Assembly: GCF_030908245.1 (NCBI RefSeq) | Contig: NZ_JAVFJJ010000010.1 | Span: 1 to 64,000 of the forward strand | DNA length: 64,000 nucleotides | Source: Sinomonas sp. ASV322 | GTDB taxonomy: Bacteria > Actinomycetota > Actinomycetes > Actinomycetales > Micrococcaceae | Direction of reading: 5' to 3' | Shown: positions 13,923 through 22,256 of the stretch, in pieces | Numbering within the stretch: position 1 is the stretch's first letter | Layout of the letters: each line of letters opens with the position of its first letter | The notes under the pieces: generated by a model | Seen by the model: only the letters and a program-made list of their open reading frames with translations | What the model was told of the DNA's origin: nothing | The model's database searches: none | Made by a program: the position numbers and the translations under genes

Positions 13923-15284
13923 TCACTTGACGCAGGGGATGCCGCCGCCGAGGAGCGACGACGACCAGTCGCCGGCGTCGTACGTCCCGGTCGACGGCGG
14001 CGACGGCTGAGCGGGAGCGGGCGCCTGCTGCGCCGGGGCCTGCGCCGGGGCCTGCTGCGCCGGGGCCTTCTGCGAACCCTGCTGCGCGGGCGGCGCCGAC
14101 GTCTGCGGCGGGGCGGGCGCCGCGCTCGTCGTCGGCTGCGGGGCGAGGAGCTCGGCGACCTGGGCCTGAATCGCACCCTTGTCCACGATGTTGACCGACT
14201 CGCCCGTGTCCGACCAGCCGAACTCCACAATCGGCAGGGTCACGAACTTCGTGTGGTTGTCCGTGAGCTGCTTGGCCTTGAGTCCGAAATCGATGAGGTT
14301 GAGCGACTGGTCGACGGCCATCTTGTCCTTGAGCGCGCCGATGATCCCCTGGATCTTCCCGAGATCGGTGAACGTGCCCTTCTGCTTGAGCTGCGTCGCG
14401 AGGGACGCGATGAACGCCTGCTGGCGGCGCGCCCGGTCGAGGTCCGTGAGGAACACGCCCTTGCCCGAGGTGTCGCGGCGCTGACGCACGAAAGCCACGG
14501 CCTGCTGGGCATTGAGCTGCTGCTGCCCTGCCTTGAAGTCGGCACCGGAGAAGGTGTCCTTGGTGGCCTCCTGGAGGCACACCGTGATGGGGGCGACGGC
14601 CTTCGCGACCGAGAGGAACGCGGACATCGTCACCTCGACGAAGTGGTCCACCTTGACATTGAGGAAGTTCTCGACCGTCTTGATCTCGGCCTTGCGTCCG
14701 GCGTCGCGGGCCTGCTGGTAGACCTCGGCGTCGCTCTTGCTCCCCTGATTGGCCTTGAGGGTCCGCATGGCCTCGTCCATCGCGTAGCCGTAGGCCTGCT
14801 TGACCTTGCCTTCCGTGACGCCGTCGGGGTGGCCGACCAGCTCGACGTAGTCGTCGCGCGGGATCGAGATGATCGTCGCTGTGCTCCCGTCCTTCGGCAC
14901 ATGCAGGAGCATGAGGACGTTGCTGTTGTACCCGCCGTCGTCCGAGCCGCCGGAGTGCAGCGCGTCGTACTCCTCTTGGCTCAGCGCGTTGCCGTTCTCG
15001 TCGAGGCGGCTGTCGAGGCCCATGAGGAGGATGTTGACGTCCTGGTCGAGGCCCGCCCCGCCGTCGATCGCCTGCGAGCGCTTGATCCCGTTCTCGATCC
15101 CGAGATACGTCGTGAGCGCGAAGATTCCGGCGCCGAGCACGAGCACGACGACGAGCGCCATCGAGAGGACCGTGATCCTCCGCCGCCGGAACTTCCTCCG
15201 GCGGTCTTGGGCGATGAGCTGCCCGTACAGGTCGTGGAACGGCTCGTTGGGCGCGCTGGCCTCGCGATCGGTCGTGTGCCGCAT
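13923..15284 (-). CDS. LytR-CpsA-Psr (LCP) family cell-wall glycopolymer ligase
   Basis: A 453-residue membrane-anchored enzyme. Residues ~1-37 are cytoplasmic and very basic just before one transmembrane helix (about 38-60). The extracellular LCP domain follows: DVNILLMGLDSR, the Arg/Asp pyrophosphate-binding SIPRDDYVEL, and later FVRQRRDTSGKGVFLTDLDRARRQQAF with the conserved Arg residues. LCP proteins transfer lipid-linked glycopolymers to peptidoglycan. The C-terminal ~110 residues contain a Pro/Ala/Gln-rich extracellular tail ending in GGGIPCVK. ATG 15284 follows GAGGAG at good spacing. It follows a small membrane protein gene by 20 bp, probably in one operon. Confidence 0.92.
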   Translation of the reverse strand: MRHTTDREASAPNEPFHDLYGQLIAQDRRRKFRRRRITVLSMALVVVLVLGAGIFALTTYLGIENGIKRSQAIDGGAGLDQDVNILLMGLDSRLDENGNALSQEEYDALHSGGSDDGGYNSNVLMLLHVPKDGSTATIISIPRDDYVELVGHPDGVTEGKVKQAYGYAMDEAMRTLKANQGSKSDAEVYQQARDAGRKAEIKTVENFLNVKVDHFVEVTMSAFLSVAKAVAPITVCLQEATKDTFSGADFKAGQQQLNAQQAVAFVRQRRDTSGKGVFLTDLDRARRQQAFIASLATQLKQKGTFTDLGKIQGIIGALKDKMAVDQSLNLIDFGLKAKQLTDNHTKFVTLPIVEFGWSDTGESVNIVDKGAIQAQVAELLAPQPTTSAAPAPPQTSAPPAQQGSQKAPAQQAPAQAPAQQAPAPAQPSPPSTGTYDAGDWSSSLLGGGIPCVK

Positions 15285-15304
15285 GCGGCTCCTCGGGTCG
15301 GCGG

Positions 15305-15781
15305 TCAGGACGGACGCGCGCCGCACGCGACGCGCGGGCCCACAGTACGCGGGCCTACGATAGCTGGTGAGTCTCCGAATTCTCTGGACGCGCGCCGCGC
15401 GTCGCGTTGACTTCGCACGGCTCCCGGGAGCGAGCGAACGACGACGGCGATGCCCGCAAGTGCCGCAAGCGCACCCAACGCGGGGCGAACCGGGGCGAGG
15501 ACGAGCGCGAACGCGACGCCGAGGCCGGCAAGGAGCGCGACCACGGCGGCCTCCCCTGCGCACGCCGCGACGAGGCGAGCCGCGAGGTCCGTGACGCGGC
15601 GGGCGTCGGCCGCAGCGGTCGAGACCACGCGCACGTGCGCGAGGTGCAGTCCCTGGAGGTCGCGGAGCACGAGGACGCCCAGCACGAGAAGCACGAGCGC
15701 GATCGCGATCGGGGCGAGCACGACGACGGCGGGGCGGCGGCCGGCGACGGACGTGCGCACGAGAGCGGTGGCGAACAGCAT
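15305..15781 (-). CDS. Hypothetical membrane protein
   Basis: A 158-residue protein that I do not recognise. It has a hydrophobic segment near residues 17-40 (VVVLAPIAIALVLLVLGVLVL), an amphipathic stretch, then two hydrophobic stretches near 70-115 rich in Ala/Val/Leu, and a basic C-terminus. Three or so membrane helices are likely. It lies 20 bp upstream of the LCP gene in the same direction, so a role in the cell envelope is plausible. ATG 15781 has a modest CCGAGG-type ribosome site; the frame is open further upstream, but only in unlikely sequence. Confidence 0.6.
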   Translation of the reverse strand: MLFATALVRTSVAGRRPAVVVLAPIAIALVLLVLGVLVLRDLQGLHLAHVRVVSTAAADARRVTDLAARLVAACAGEAAVVALLAGLGVAFALVLAPVRPALGALAALAGIAVVVRSLPGAVRSQRDARRASREFGDSPAIVGPRTVGPRVACGARPS

Positions 15782-16093: not shown

Positions 16094-19000
16094 CTACACC
16101 GGCTCGCGCAGCACGATGTCGACGGGGTTGGCCTGCGAGACCGGCCCGCCTGGCTCCCCCTCCCGCCCGAGCCCCTCCAAAAGACCCGAACGGTTCGTGC
16201 GCTTGTCGCGGAGGATCTCCGTGACCGATCCCAGGTGCCGCGAGAGGTCGATGACGTTCTCGGGCGCCGCGAGCAGGAGCTGGAACCCGAACTCATGCAG
16301 GGCCGAGATGCCGGCCCCCGCGAACTCCTCGGACGCGAGGACGAAAGCCTCGTCCATCATGACCGTCCCGTAGGTCGTGAAGCCCTGCTCCGCGATCCCG
16401 AGCTGGTAGCTGAGCGCGGCCGCCATGATGAACGCCGTGAAGCGCTGCCGCTCGCCGCCGGACATGCTGCCGGTGTCCGCGTGGACGAAGACCTCGTCCC
16501 GTGGCATCCCGTCCGGGTTGGCGCCGGCGCGGTGCTCCTTGCACGAGATGAACACGTGCGTCCGCACGTCGAGCACCTCGGCGCGCCAGCGGCGGTCCTC
16601 GGGCGTCGACGAGCCGAGGCGCTTCACGAGCGTCTCGAGGGTCTTGTAGCGGGCGGCGAGGGCGTCGTCTCCAGCTGCGCCCGCGCCGTCGTCCTTCGCG
16701 TCCATACCGTGGCGCGCCTTGAGCGCCGAGACGATCGCGTCCTTGAACTGGCGCGCGGACGCGGGCACGGTCTGCTTGATGTCGAGCTCGAGGTAGCTGC
16801 CCTCGTGGAACCCGACGCCGCCGAGGATGCTGTTGAGCGGGAGGATGCGGGCGGAGATCGCGCGGCGCTCCTCGTCGAGGAGGTGCAGGAGCGTGCTGAA
16901 CGATTCGTGCGTGCGCTGCTGGAAGAAGCGCCGGAACTCGGCCTCCTGCGCGGGCAGGCCCTCGGAGACGATGTCGTGATAGCGGGCCTCGAACGCGCTG
17001 GCCGCGGCGACGGACACGCCGTGGTCCGCGGAGACGCCCGGGCCCCACTCGCGCTCGAACGATTCGAAGATCCGGGTGAGGCGTTCCGCGGCGGCCTGCC
17101 CTCGGCTCTCGGCCGCGTGGAGCTCCTCGAGGAGGCGCGTGCGCGCGGTGTTGGCCAGGTTGTCGAGCCCGTGGAGGTCGGCGAGGCCCGCGGCGCCGTC
17201 GAAGTAGGGGGCGAGGGCCTGGACGTCGTCGCCCGACGGCGGCGCCCCGGCGACGCGCGAGCGCCCGGCTTCGAGGAGCCTCGCCGCGGAGCTCGCGGCC
17301 GCATCGAGATGCCGGTGCTCGCTCTGGAGGACCGCGGCGGCCTCGGTCGAGGCCTGGTGCTCCTCGCGGGCCGCCTCGACCTTCGCGCGGAGCGGCTCGA
17401 GGTCGGCCTGCGCGGCCTGAGCGTCCTCAAGGCGCTGCTCGGCGCGGCGGAGCTCGTCCTCGGCGACCACGGCCGAGACCTCCTCCCACGCCCGCGCGTC
17501 CGAGGCGACGCGCCGGAGCGCCTCGAGGCGGCGGGCCATGCCCTGGTGCGAGTCCTCGCTCGCCTGGGCGGCCTCGGCGGCGCGCGCGAGGGCGGCCTCA
17601 AGCGCGGCGATGCGCGCGGCGAGGTCTTCGATCTTGACGGCATTGTCGAAGCCGAGCACCCAGTCCTGGCGGGATGCGAAGCGGTCGTCCTTCTCGACCG
17701 TCCCGCGGTGCCGCTTGACGACGCCGCCGAGGCTCAGGCCGCGGTCGAGCCCCGCGAGCTCGTCCGGATCCTCGACGCACGGGTATGCGAAGTCGACGGC
17801 GATGCGCTCGCGGACATACGTGCCCGCCCGGTTGCGCACTGCGAGCCCTGCGTTCTCGAGAATGTCGAGCTTCGTCAGGAGGTCGTCCTCGCGCACATCG
17901 GCGAGCGCGGCGGCGGCGCCGGGGACGGGCACCGAGAGGTCGACGGCGCGCAGCGCGCCGCGGATCGCGTGCTCGTCGAGGTAGCGGGTCACGGCGGCGA
18001 AGTGCTCGCCGGGCACAAGGAGCGTCGTCGCGAGCGAGCGGAGCGCGCGTTCGGCGGCGGGCCGCCAGCGCTCCTCGCCGTCCGCGAGATCGATGAGCTC
18101 GCCCGCGAACGGCATGTCCTCCTCCGCGACGCCCGTCGCCGCGGCGATCGCGGCCCGGTTTTCGACGGACGACGGCGGCAGGAGGCTCTTGCGCGCGGCC
18201 ATCGACTCGAGCTCGCGGCGGGACTCGGCGAGGTCGCGCTTGGCAGCCGCGTGCGCGTCGAAGGCCTCGAAGCGCGCCTCACGCAGGGCCGCGGAGTCGC
18301 CCTCGAGCGATTCGGTCGCCGCGGCGGCCTCTTGGTGGGCCCCCGCCCAGCCCTCGGCCGTCCACGGAAGCTGCAGCCCGGCGTCGTCCATTCCCTGCCG
18401 CGCCGCCGCCTCGACCTCGCGCCGCAGCCGCAGCCCGACGCGCGCGTTCTCGACGTGCTGTTCGAGCGTGCTGATCTGGTTCCCGCCCGCGTTGTTGTAC
18501 TCGGCTTCGAGCGCACGGAGCTGATTCGCGAGCGCGTCGCGGGTCTTGCGCTCGGCGGCGAGCTCGGCGGCCTTCGATTTCGCCGAATCGGCGGCGCGCG
18601 CCGCGATGCGCTCCTGGACCGTGACGGCGAACTGCTCGCGGACGCGCTCGAACGCCTCGCCCGTGAGGTCGCGGAGCCGGTTCGCCTCGAGGAGGGCCTT
18701 CGCATACTGCACGTTGAGTCCCGGAACGGGCGCGAGCTGGTCGCGCTGCTCGCGCACGTCCTCGAGCCGCTGCCGGATGGACATGAGGTTGCTGAACTCC
18801 TCGACCACCTGGTCCGAGGCCGCGAGTGTCTCGGGCGGATCGAGGACCTGGTCGCGGAAGAAGCTGTTGACGCTCCCGCCGAGCCCCTTGCCGGCCTGGA
18901 TTACGCGCAGGAGCGGGATGGCCTGGTCCGAGGAGATGCCGAGGAGGCGGCGGAAGCGCTCGGCGAAGTTCTTGTGGACGTCGAAGACCTGCGCGTGCGG

Positions 19001-19543
19001 GAAGATCCCCTCGAGCGTGCTCCGCGTGAACCGCCGGTCCGCGATGCCCTCGACCGCTCGCACGTCGAGCGGCACGGAGTCGATGAGGTAGAAGCGGCCG
19101 AGGCTCGACTCCGTCCCGTTCTTCGGGAGGTCGAACAGCGCGGTGAGCGTGCAGCGTGTGCCCGCGGCGTTGTCGTAGGTGAGGGCGACGGCGCTCCATG
19201 TCGCGCCGGGGCGCTGGAACGCGCTGGCCTGCGTCTCCCCGACCGCGACGTCGCCGACCTTGCCGCGCATGTACGTGAAGGTCGTGCGGCGGTCCTCGCT
19301 CTGGCCCGTGCGCGTCGCGGCGGCCTCGTTCGAGCGGGGGCGGGCGTCGAACACGCGCGCGATCGCGTCGAAGAGCGTCGACTTGCCGACGCCCGAGTTG
19401 CCCGTGAGGAGCGTCCCCGAGCGGTCGACGTGCATCGTGTGGGCGCCGTGGAAAGTGCCCCAGTTGACGATCTGGACCTGGCCCAGACGGAACTGGCCCG
19501 GGTTGACGTCGAGGCCGAGCGGGAGCATGGTCGCGACGCTCAT
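16094..19543 (-). CDS. jetC: JetC/MksB: SMC-like condensin ATPase of a Wadjet-type complex
   Basis: An 1149-residue SMC-like protein. It starts with an ATPase head half ([18 protein letters not shown], the typical opening of this family) and Walker [10 protein letters not shown] at 48-56. Long heptad-rich coiled coils run from about 280-480 and 640-870 around a central hinge region near 500-640. The C-terminal half-head has signature SGGERQ at 1028 and Walker B VMMDEAF at 1061. Together with JetA and JetB it should form a DNA-embracing, loop-extruding dimer. In complete Wadjet systems the complex hands circular plasmids to the JetD nuclease. The start overlaps the jetB stop as ATGA. The ATPase looks intact. 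No jetD follows. Confidence 0.92.
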
Positions 19544-20493
19544 ACGAGCTCCTCCTCGGTGCTGGCCGCCTCGTCAGTCTCGCCGAGGTCGGGCCCCCTG
19601 ACGCCGAGATCGGGGCTGCCGTCGCCGAGATCGGGCCCCCTGACGCCGAGATCGGGGCTGCCGTCGCCCTCATCCTCGCCCTCCCCGGCGAGGTCAAGCG
19701 CGGGCTGCGCGGCGCCGTCGTCCGCCTCGCCCGCCCTCGCGACATCCGCGTCCGCCGCCGCGACCGCCTCGAGGTGGCGCGCGATGTCCCCGACGTTCTC
19801 GAACGGCAGCGCGAGCGGGAGGGCGTTCGAGATGAGGAAGACGTCGTCGAGCGGCGTCGGGAGGAGCAGCCGGCGGGCCTGGAGCTTCTGGACGGCCCGG
19901 GCCACGGTGTCCGCGTCGCGGAGCGCATCCTGCTGGTCCGCGGGCTGGTAGTGGGCGACGACGTCGGAAAGCTCCTCAAGCGTGACCGTCGGTTCGGTGT
20001 GCGCGGTCGAGTGGCGGTCGAGGAGGAGCCGGAGGCGGAGGACGAGGATCGTCTCGACGCGGCTCAGGGTGCGCTGCTGGCGCAGGATCGTCGAGCGCGC
20101 GGCCGTGCCGAGAAGCTCTGGGTCGACGGGGCGGACGACGGCGATCTTCCGCTCGTGGTCGATGAGAAGGGACAGGAAGAGCTCGGACAGGCGCGAGCGC
20201 AACACGTCCTGGCTGTCGAGGAGTGCCGTCCACAGGCGCTCGTCGCGGCCGCCGTCGAGGTACGGGCCCTTGAGCAGGCGCACGAGGGTCTGGCGCACGC
20301 GGAGGGGAAGCGCGCCCGTGTCGCCGTCGTAGAGGGCGGCAGCGTTCGCAGGACGACGGCGGGACCCGACCTCGGCGGCAGGGGCCCCGACCTCGGCGAC
20401 AGGCGACCCGACCTCGGCGACAGGCGACCCGACCTCGGCGGCAGGCGCCCCGACCTGGGCGGCAGGCGCCCCGACCTCGGCGTGTTCGGTCAT
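19540..20493 (-). CDS. jetB: JetB/MksE: DUF4194 subunit of the condensin complex
   Basis: A 317-residue DUF4194-type protein. In Wadjet/MksBEF complexes this winged-helix subunit binds the JetC head and the JetA dimer. The conserved core is residues ~50-245 ([61 protein letters not shown]). Both ends are unusual. Residues 5-43 are five heptads such as EVGAPAA and EVGSPVA, and residues ~275-305 are four heptads such as GDGSPDL and GVRGPDL. Both are coded by tandem 21-bp DNA units and are absent from the family core. Overlaps of four bases with jetA and jetC point to one translationally coupled operon. Confidence 0.9.
19581..19664. repeat. Four 21-bp units in the jetB 3' region
   Basis: Units at 19581, 19602, 19623 and 19644 alternate between two versions, CGCCGAGATCGGGCCCCCTG-type and CGCCGAGATCGGGGCTGCCG-type. 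Each codes seven residues (GVRGPDL or GDGSPDL). The core CGCCGAGATCGGG is the same as in the array at 43811-43951. Confidence 0.9.
20373..20477. repeat. Five 21-bp units in the jetB 5' region
   Basis: Units start at 20373, 20394, 20415, 20436 and 20457, with core CGGCG(G/A)CAGGCG(A/C)CCCGACCT. They code heptads EVG(A/S)P(A/V)A immediately after the JetB start and keep the frame. Confidence 0.9.
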
Positions 20494-22256
20494 GCTGTTC
20501 CCCTCTCCGCGACGTCTGCGTTCTTAGCGGCCTCGCCATTCCTTGCGGCCTCGGCCGCCCTCGCCTCTCCCACCGGCACGTACGCGCGCCTCTCCGAGCC
20601 GTCGACCTGCTCGAAATCGAGCGCTTCCCAGCCCTCGCGGCCAACGTCGCCAGCGAACACGGCGCCGCGGTGCAAAAGCTCGCCCAGCAGCGCGCGGATC
20701 GTGTTGATGTGACGCTCCTCGGGCGGAAGCTCGCGCCACACGCTCGCGGCGGTCGCGCGCCCGCCGTCGGCGGCAAGGGCGACGTCGAAGGCCCGCCGGA
20801 GTGCCACCGCGTTCGCCTTGCCCGTTCGCGCCGAGCGGACGCGGTCCCCCTCGCGGAACGCGATGGGCTCCGCGAGCCGCGGCGGGGCGACGTATTCGTC
20901 GGGGTCGAAGAGCTTGACCATCGCGAGCGAGTCGAATTCCGCAGAGAAGAGCTCGGGCGCGGGCGCGAATGCGGCCTGCTCGCGCTGGTACGGGAGTTTG
21001 CGGACGGCGCGCTCGGCGTCGCGAATCGCGTCGCGCAGCCGCACGGACTGGCGGTAGTCGTCGCTCTGGACGTACGTGTTGAGGCTCTCGGAGAGCTTGC
21101 CGTAGATGCCCTGGATCTCGGAGTGCTGATCGCGGAGCTCGGCCACGAGGTGGCGCAGGGTCAGGCGTTCCTCGGCGTCGAGGCGGTCGGCGAAGTCGCG
21201 CGAGAGGACCTCGGCGATGGCCGAGCGGAAGCGGAGCTGCTGCTCGGGGTTCTCGAGGAACGCGGTGAAGGATCGGAACGTGCGGCCCTCGCTCGACTCG
21301 CGGAGCCGCTTGTCGGCCTCGAGCACCTGCGCCATCGTCGCGCCCTTGCTGAGCGACTCCTCGATGATCTGGTTGCGGAGCTGGCCCACGGATTCCTCGA
21401 TGCGGTCGCGCATGCGCTTGAAGTCCGCTGGAAGGCCGGCCGCGAGGTCGAGGATGTTCTCGGCGGACTCGACGGCGTCGTCGGATTCGAGGCCTGCGTC
21501 TAGTTCTCCGGCCTCGAGGCCGCGGATCATCTCGCGCCGTTCGCCAATCTCGGCCTCGAGCGCCTCGACGCGCGCACTCGTATCCGGATTGGTCTCCTGG
21601 GCAAGCTTCTCGACGTCGGCGAGGAGCGTCCCGAGGCGCGAGCCCGTGAGCGTCGAGCGGTCGGAGGAGAGCGAATCGAGGAAGGCCAGCACACGGGCGG
21701 CCGCCTCGGTGAGCTCATACACGATGCGCCCGCTCTGCGCACGGCGCGAGAGGAAGCGGCGGCGGGTCCAATCGTCCGCGACGAGGCGGCCCGTGAGCGT
21801 TCCCGCCGTGCTGGCGGTGTTGGACGCGGCGTCGCGGGCGCGGAGTTCCGCAAGGAAGTCGTCGAGCTCGTCGTGGAACGTCTCGAGCTCTACGTGCGGG
21901 CGGTTGCGGGTGAACGCGGTCTGCAGCGCCGCGATGACCCACGGCGCCGAACGAGTGAGGGCCCACGCGGGGCCTTTCGTGAGGACTTCGAGCTCGGCGA
22001 GCCGCGAGAGCATCGCGGAGGCCTGGCTGGGGGCCACGGCGCGGGCGCGGGCGGGGCCTATGCCTGCGGGGATCGTGCCTGCGGGGGCCGTGCCTGCGGG
22101 GGCCGTGCCTGCGGAGCCGCGGCCTATGCCTGCGGGGACGGGTCCTGTGCCTGCCAGTGACGACGGCGCCGACGCGTGCGCCGCGGCGGTGCGGGCACGG
22201 TTCGGGGCGGGTTCTGGCACGGCAGCCCAGTCTACCGGGCGGGCCGCGGCTCTCAT
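20490..22256 (-). CDS. jetA: JetA/MksF: DUF3375 kleisin-like subunit
   Basis: A DUF3375-type protein of 588 residues from this start. JetA is the kleisin subunit that bridges the JetC heads. Conserved parts begin at [19 protein letters not shown] and include [11 protein letters not shown], a long helical region with [21 protein letters not shown], and [24 protein letters not shown] 22256 has CGAGG just upstream. A GTG at 22313 and an ATG at 22013 are also possible, and the conserved domain starts only at the latter. Between 22256 and 22013 the protein is low-complexity, with pentads of the AGTAP type coded by 15-bp repeats. The stop overlaps the jetB start as ATGA. The family normally has about 450-500 residues. 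Confidence 0.85.
22060..22155. repeat. 15-bp repeats in the jetA 5' region
   Basis: Units related to GTGCCTGCGGGGGCC repeat about six times with changes. They code (minus strand) [10 protein letters not shown]-type pentads before the first conserved JetA residues. Confidence 0.75.

Follow-up and report, generated by a model that had tools for sequence, protein, structure and literature searches.

A conserved MksBEF-type operon without the JetD nuclease in Sinomonas, and probable repeated nuclease loss across Actinomycetes

A jetABC operon and its missing nuclease gene

What does the sensing part of a Wadjet system do in the absence of its nuclease? Wadjet is understood as a sensor plus a cutter, and the question is raised by a conserved lineage that lacks the cutter, to which the jetABC operon of Sinomonas sp. 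ASV322 (Micrococcaceae) belongs. The operon lies within the first 64,000 nucleotides of contig NZ_JAVFJJ010000010.1, the whole stretch of DNA that we analyzed and refer to as the window. Comparison of sequences indicates that this is a conserved JetD-less lineage of MksBEF type, accompanied by probable repeated loss of the nuclease across the class Actinomycetes.

All three genes are on the minus strand. Specifically, jetA (20490..22256) encodes an MksF/MukF-like kleisin of family DUF3375 (PADLOC JetA1, 5e-219, residues 78-562; Pfam DUF3375), jetB (19540..20493) an MksE/MukE-like KITE protein of family DUF4194 (PADLOC JetB1, 3e-116; Pfam DUF4194), and jetC (16094..19543) an MksB/MukB-like structural maintenance of chromosomes (SMC) ATPase (PADLOC JetC1, E=0; Pfam AAA_29 and SbcC_Walker_B). 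The initial annotation described the genes as contiguous, intact, and coupled by ATGA overlaps, and both the profiles and the sequence bear this out: the jetA/jetB and jetB/jetC junctions are ATGA overlaps, and all three frames read as open. Furthermore, a motif comparison over 98 JetC proteins found the Walker A, signature, and Walker B residues in the jetC product. With type I Wadjet (JetABCD, MksBEFG, or EptABCD), the window shares the JetA1, JetB1, and JetC1 profiles, the gene order, the overlaps, and kinship in trees. The difference is that type I Wadjet has JetD/MksG, a DUF3322 plus DUF2220 TOPRIM protein, and the window operon does not.

The absence of jetD beside the operon, also reported in the initial annotation, was upheld by two kinds of search. 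Across the draft genome (33 contigs, 97.87% complete), there were zero matches to JetD_C (PF09983, DUF2220) or DUF3322 (PF11795), while a Corynebacterium glutamicum control was positive for both. In addition, we built a JetD profile from 8 of the 18 JetD-positive loci of at least 15 kb, leaving 10 that were independent. The profile found a match in 18/18 of these loci and in a Pseudomonas aeruginosa plasmid outgroup locus, and none in the window. The initial annotation named a jetD gene beside a second jetABC copy elsewhere in the genome as a refuting case. We looked for such a copy with PF11855, scoring 10 of 15 first-look candidates, and saw a single JetA and no second jetABC in this genome.

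The operon recurs throughout the genus and family. Our genome set comprised 148 searched genomes, this one included, of which 75 had JetA and 38 had JetD_C; for the comparison of neighborhoods, 60 loci were fetched in addition to the window, and genes around them were called by a simple rule based on third-position GC content, which missed some genes. The same JetD-less operon was present in 13 of 14 genus-mates (all except G012), and in none of them did jetD adjoin it. In the JetA tree (80 of 91 rows, 11 having been removed as duplicates of loci already represented), the 41 JetD-less loci of the family, including the window, formed one clade with a support of 100/100. Nine of the 10 genera with at least two rows were monophyletic by eye within this clade (the exception being g7), which suggests mainly vertical descent. 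The initial annotation had noted that a loss confined to this strain, in relatives that carry jetD right after jetC, would undo its reading; jetD adjoined the operon in 0/41 clade loci. The pattern extends to named relatives (Arthrobacter, Pseudarthrobacter, Paenarthrobacter, Sinomonas, and further Micrococcaceae), with Paenarthrobacter aurescens TC1 and several Pseudarthrobacter strains among the carriers. By JetC, the nearest of the named relatives are S. albida and S. gamaensis (87% identity), so that the window probably belongs to Sinomonas. Among the best 80 of the 393 that were found, which partly repeat genomes of the 41 (at least seven of the 80 are genomes of our searched set), our JetD profile had 0 matches, and 75 of the 80 have at least 3 kb of sequence beyond jetC.

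It could be argued that jetD sits in the unassembled 2% of the genome, or that JetD is supplied in trans from another locus. The draft status of the assembly speaks for this, as do three genus-mates (G003, G005, and G011) in which a JetD_C match lies beside an additional, divergent jetABC. However, JetD_C was found nowhere in 28 of the 41 clade genomes, six of which are single-contig assemblies (G002, G004, G033, G059, G075, and G084), and we regard this explanation as very unlikely. Thus, the suggestion of a nuclease encoded elsewhere fails for JetD in most relatives, while a different nuclease could still be involved. The fourth genus-mate with a JetD_C match, G009, has no second jetA: its lone match (G009:C1:2063153-2063677, 82.8 bits) occurs in a Sinomonas genome whose sole JetA found is JetD-less.

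A further suggestion was that the operon is a degraded defense locus, that is, a decaying Wadjet remnant retained by chance. In its favor, the missing JetD leaves the four-gene definition of PADLOC unsatisfied (PMC9252829). Against it, three long open frames were found in 41/41 clade loci and in 79/80 named relatives; the exception, L181, is a 6.9-kb contig on which jetA starts at the contig end. The Walker A lysine, the DE of Walker B, and the SGG of the signature were retained in 41/41 clade loci. Ratios of nonsynonymous to synonymous substitution (dN/dS, Nei-Gojobori, against five near genus-mates) were 0.125 for jetA, 0.147 for jetB, and 0.134 for jetC; among neighboring genes, the LCP gene gave a higher value, 0.31 (four genomes), and three others gave similar ones, 0.11, 0.14, and 0.11. 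Intact frames together with dN/dS of ~0.13 rule out decay, and on present data we treat this possibility as refuted. In short, the absence of JetD is neither private to this strain nor a matter of decay.

Consistent with this, a search for JetD remnants in 165 JetD-less loci returned just three short matches (L094, L226, and L229) and no clear remnant. Two of these were inside jetC, and the third ran from within jetC to ~80 bp past its end. We did not count them as remnants because they derive from a frame upstream of the jetD start in the JetD rows, read over the jetC end, although this frame accounts for the tail of the L229 match only partly.

Probable nuclease loss in the wider class

Is the missing nuclease peculiar to Micrococcaceae? 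In a class-wide sample of 345 genomes, JetA was matched in 62 and JetD_C in 35. By a hand count from coordinates, 35 of 60 near-full-length jetA loci had no JetD_C nearby; this count leaves out partial JetA matches, and no more than four first-look candidates were scored in any one genome, so that second copies may have been missed. Our JetD profile had no match in any of the 35 (30 new loci and 5 already fetched). Two of the loci, L230 and L101, stop before the end of jetC, but JetD_C was absent from both genomes. Among the 30 new loci, 28 passed the check for three open frames, the failures being L230, whose record ends inside jetC, and L247.

The phylogenetic evidence argues for loss rather than gain. 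On a JetC tree of 75 of 181 rows (quick method, no bootstrap; L247 omitted for its short open frame), the distribution of JetD required seven changes, six of them forced by starred, that is, well-supported, branches. In a JetD tree of 19 JetD-positive loci, 7/7 starred groups recurred in the JetC tree of these loci; some unstarred forks differed. Because all seven groups recur, JetD was probably ancestral, co-inherited with JetC, and lost several times. Furthermore, a single clade containing all JetD-less rows was rejected by the approximately unbiased test (p 1.9e-54, 31 of the 75 rows), which together with the shared groups points to repeated loss of the nuclease with the motor kept.

These results bear on how such loci are counted. 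Sets of JetABC without JetD are already tabulated in the literature. In PADLOC, a set counts as Wadjet only with the four genes complete, and incomplete or Muk-like sets go under "other", with no lineage or function attached in its description (PMC9252829); the gene set of its "Wadjet other" is the same as that of the window. Similarly, one table of a published paper (PMC11719660, Table 6) credits Paenarthrobacter lasiusi S21 with a complete type I system as well as one "Wadjet: JetA, JetB, JetC", the difference passing without comment there. A census places Wadjet in 42% of Actinobacteria, a figure that may include JetD-less sets (PMC10482375). In the portions of the Wadjet and MksBEF literature covered by our search, we found no discussion of this JetD-less lineage or of repeated nuclease loss, and the phrase "without JetD" did not appear. 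We propose, with somewhat less than even confidence, that Actinomycetes have repeatedly discarded the Wadjet nuclease and kept the loop-extruding motor, so that a defense that cuts plasmids became a regulator acting on circular or chromosomal DNA without cutting it, that the JetD-less form of JetABC is the commoner one in the class, and that Wadjet counts blind to jetD overstate plasmid restriction. JetABC-only matches should not be scored as plasmid defense before a check for jetD.

Three other arrangements were seen in the course of the survey. In family f11 (L099-L102), from genomes without JetD_C, kilobases and other genes separate jetA from jetB and, in L102, also from jetC. At L050, jetA, jetB, and a JetD match are present with merely a 117-amino-acid jetC frame between, which is likely a jetC deletion or an assembly fault. 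In family f8 (L095-L097), the gene immediately upstream of a JetD-less jetABC encodes a leucine tRNA ligase (identified by profile in L095 and by cluster in the other two).

What the motor may do without a cutter

What, then, might the complex do? The features of an MksBEF-type system are found in the window: genes for an SMC ATPase, a kleisin, and a KITE protein stand together, the catalytic motifs are intact, and a canonical Smc coexists (typical of such systems, not obligatory), encoded separately on contig C28 of this genome (TIGR02168, 895.6 bits). JetC, JetA, and JetB make up a complete SMC complex of the MukBEF/MksBEF type, descended from a type I Wadjet ancestor that presumably had JetD. 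In the Micrococcaceae lineage, JetD was probably lost once, early, and the motor has stayed under purifying selection. Such a complex may load on DNA and form loops or bridges through ATP hydrolysis, without cutting, as a second condensin beside Smc.

The suggestion of a chromosome or plasmid condensin is the option that fits best, the function itself being assigned by analogy. In the reading we prefer, to which we give about an even chance, the complex works alongside Smc as a stand-alone condensin of MksBEF type; the chromosome would be its most likely target, through organization or segregation, and extrachromosomal DNA is a close alternative. In P. aeruginosa, MksBEF likewise combines a kleisin, a KITE protein, and an SMC of the MukBEF superfamily and coexists with Smc. 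There it contributes to the spatial organization of the chromosome and guides segregation, and the main text of that report never mentions MksG (PMC7485682). The likeness to the window is one of gene set, and the chromosome role pertains to P. aeruginosa. By contrast, C. glutamicum MksBEFG, which has the nuclease, acts on plasmids, a difference from P. aeruginosa that its authors draw themselves (PMC7083940); the nuclease is described as the executing component of MksBEFG (PMC10123090). It is from this pair, the P. aeruginosa complex set against the nuclease-bearing one of C. glutamicum, that a chromosome role without a nuclease is argued. The lineage also raises the question of whether SMC complexes of plasmid defense can turn into chromosome condensins.

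Alternatively, JetABC could be a nuclease-free plasmid control system that recognizes small circular DNA by loop extrusion and then compacts, silences, or mis-partitions it. Kinship of the operon with plasmid-restricting JetABCD in trees and its intact ATPase motifs are compatible with this, and Smc5/6 offers a model: this KITE-type SMC complex acts on extrachromosomal DNA, which it restricts by compaction in the model put forward (PMC10586767), although it is eukaryotic and distant and serves as an analogy only. On the other hand, in Bacillus subtilis, plasmid transformation was suppressed only with all four genes, so that JetD was required for restriction in those tests (PMC10586767). We therefore consider plasmid control without cutting possible, yet less probable than the condensin reading.

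We also looked for traces of a former contact with JetD, listing columns that are conserved among JetD-positive sequences (50, 49, and 19 rows for JetA, JetB, and JetC, respectively) but altered in the JetD-less clade. L066 was excluded from alignment A1 since its coordinates took in a stop. Candidate columns for a JetD docking signature in JetA tracked ancestry, not JetD presence: in a mixed clade, JetD-positive L253 shares letters with its JetD-less sisters, and JetD-less L222 and L225 have the JetD-positive letters at two columns. Among the columns followed up, those of JetA, no JetD-linked change was seen, and recognition of DNA may be unchanged, as the plasmid control hypothesis would have it. 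The IFDR motif, a JetD contact at the N terminus of JetB, was unrecognizable even in most of the JetD-positive actinobacterial JetB sequences viewed, and its absence is uninformative for that reason.

Several observations weigh against a conserved, stand-alone condensin with a chromosomal target. Among the JetA columns checked, no residue change marks the loss of JetD, and nothing there shows that a nuclease partner was given up. The operon is not essential, being absent from G012, one of 14 genus-mates. JetD_C matches occur somewhere in 13 of the 41 clade genomes (2 of these weak or without a second jetA), where a trans-acting JetD is possible. JetD-less jetABC is also found on replicons of 1.35 Mb (L219) and 754 kb (L218) recorded as Arthrobacter plasmids. 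Against eight farther genus-mates, the ratio of proportions of nonsynonymous and synonymous differences (pN/pS) was 0.37-0.40 for jetABC and 0.22-0.45 for neighbors, with synonymous sites near saturation. The root of the trees is unfixed, leaving gains of JetD formally possible, and the branches of L252 and L102 are long. Finally, the chromosome role draws on analogy, and the complex of C. glutamicum, likewise actinobacterial, leaves chromosome folding unaffected (PMC7083940).

Neighboring genes and repeats within the operon

We also searched around the operon for a fourth gene in place of jetD. At JetD-positive loci the JetD match adjoins jetC. In the window, that position downstream of jetC is taken by a gene for an LCP-family glycopolymer transferase (13923..15659, with a provisional start, minus strand; Pfam LytR_cpsA_psr), which is not a nuclease. 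It belongs to a gene order that recurs in the genus (jetABC, LCP, GDSL, MFS, GNAT-AAA), where our gene caller recovered it in 10 of 14 loci; flanks vary between genera. Clustering of the 60 fetched loci plus the window, and of 40 class-wide loci with genes called by the same GC rule, revealed no gene after jetC common to all JetD-less loci. A few clusters were common to two genera, cluster 30 in the orientation of jetC and clusters 20, 21, and 24 in the opposite one.

Of the same-strand genes called next to jetC, we scanned 20 with Pfam. Those of the Micrococcaceae clade encode a multicopper oxidase, a metallo-beta-lactamase-fold protein, an epimerase, an MFS protein, an RlmN-like methyltransferase, a sigma factor, a histidine kinase, and two proteins without a family. 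Beyond this clade they were mostly unrelated, but L231 has a gene for an SbcD-like phosphoesterase and L236 one for a PIF1-like helicase, whose cluster also occurs in L237. The phosphoesterase gene, seen at one locus (L231:11601-12920), is directly 3' of a JetD-less jetC and is followed by a 1001-amino-acid frame. Upstream genes that were scanned comprised leuS (L095), an aldo-keto reductase, DUF1206, an acyl-CoA oxidase, a deacetylase, and, in one subclade, TM0106.

TM0106 (TIGR03491), a family of RecB-like nuclease/helicases, is the candidate for an unrelated partner. In G088, such a gene (L084:6157-9828, minus) ends ~30 bp upstream of a JetD-less jetA, and on plasmid ERGS1:01 another (L218:2059-5679) lies directly upstream with a gap of 151 bp, both being co-directional with jetA; in all, a match lies within ~11 kb or less of jetA in 10 genomes from five genera. 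By hand counts, with G000-G088 taken as the family, TM0106 occurred in 30 of 41 genomes with the JetD-less operon and in 10 of 48 without it (Fisher p 8e-7, ignoring shared ancestry and genome size), and the Sinomonas genome studied here has one such gene, on contig C32. However, this is a different contig from that of the operon, TM0106 is absent from 11 of the 41 operon-bearing genomes, six of them Sinomonas, and its linkage to jetA is limited to one subclade and belongs to a wider gene block in some genera (clusters 16, 20, 21, and 22). We consider the partnership improbable.

Repeats occur within the operon itself. The true start of jetA may lie downstream of the ATG at 22256, because the JetA domain starts near residue 78 and the leader is repetitive; as annotated, this N-terminal leader is coded by 15-bp and related repeats (22051-22154). 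Tandem Repeats Finder and a pattern scan identified two 21-bp tandem arrays on the minus strand of jetB. The first (20363..20482, 5.7 copies) codes for an AEVG-type repeat at the N terminus of JetB, and the second (19580..19668, 4.2 copies) for the C terminus, with the same core in the opposite orientation. The core, GCCGAGRTCGGG, is near-palindromic, and the arrays are in frame at both ends of jetB. A longer version of the core matched the genome exactly at 17 sites, of which 6 are inside the jetB arrays, compared with 0 for a reversed control, and some of the matches outside jetB were also in a 21-bp register. Of the 13 loci from other Sinomonas genomes, five (L053, L054, L055, L058, and L060) likewise have arrays at the ends of jetB.

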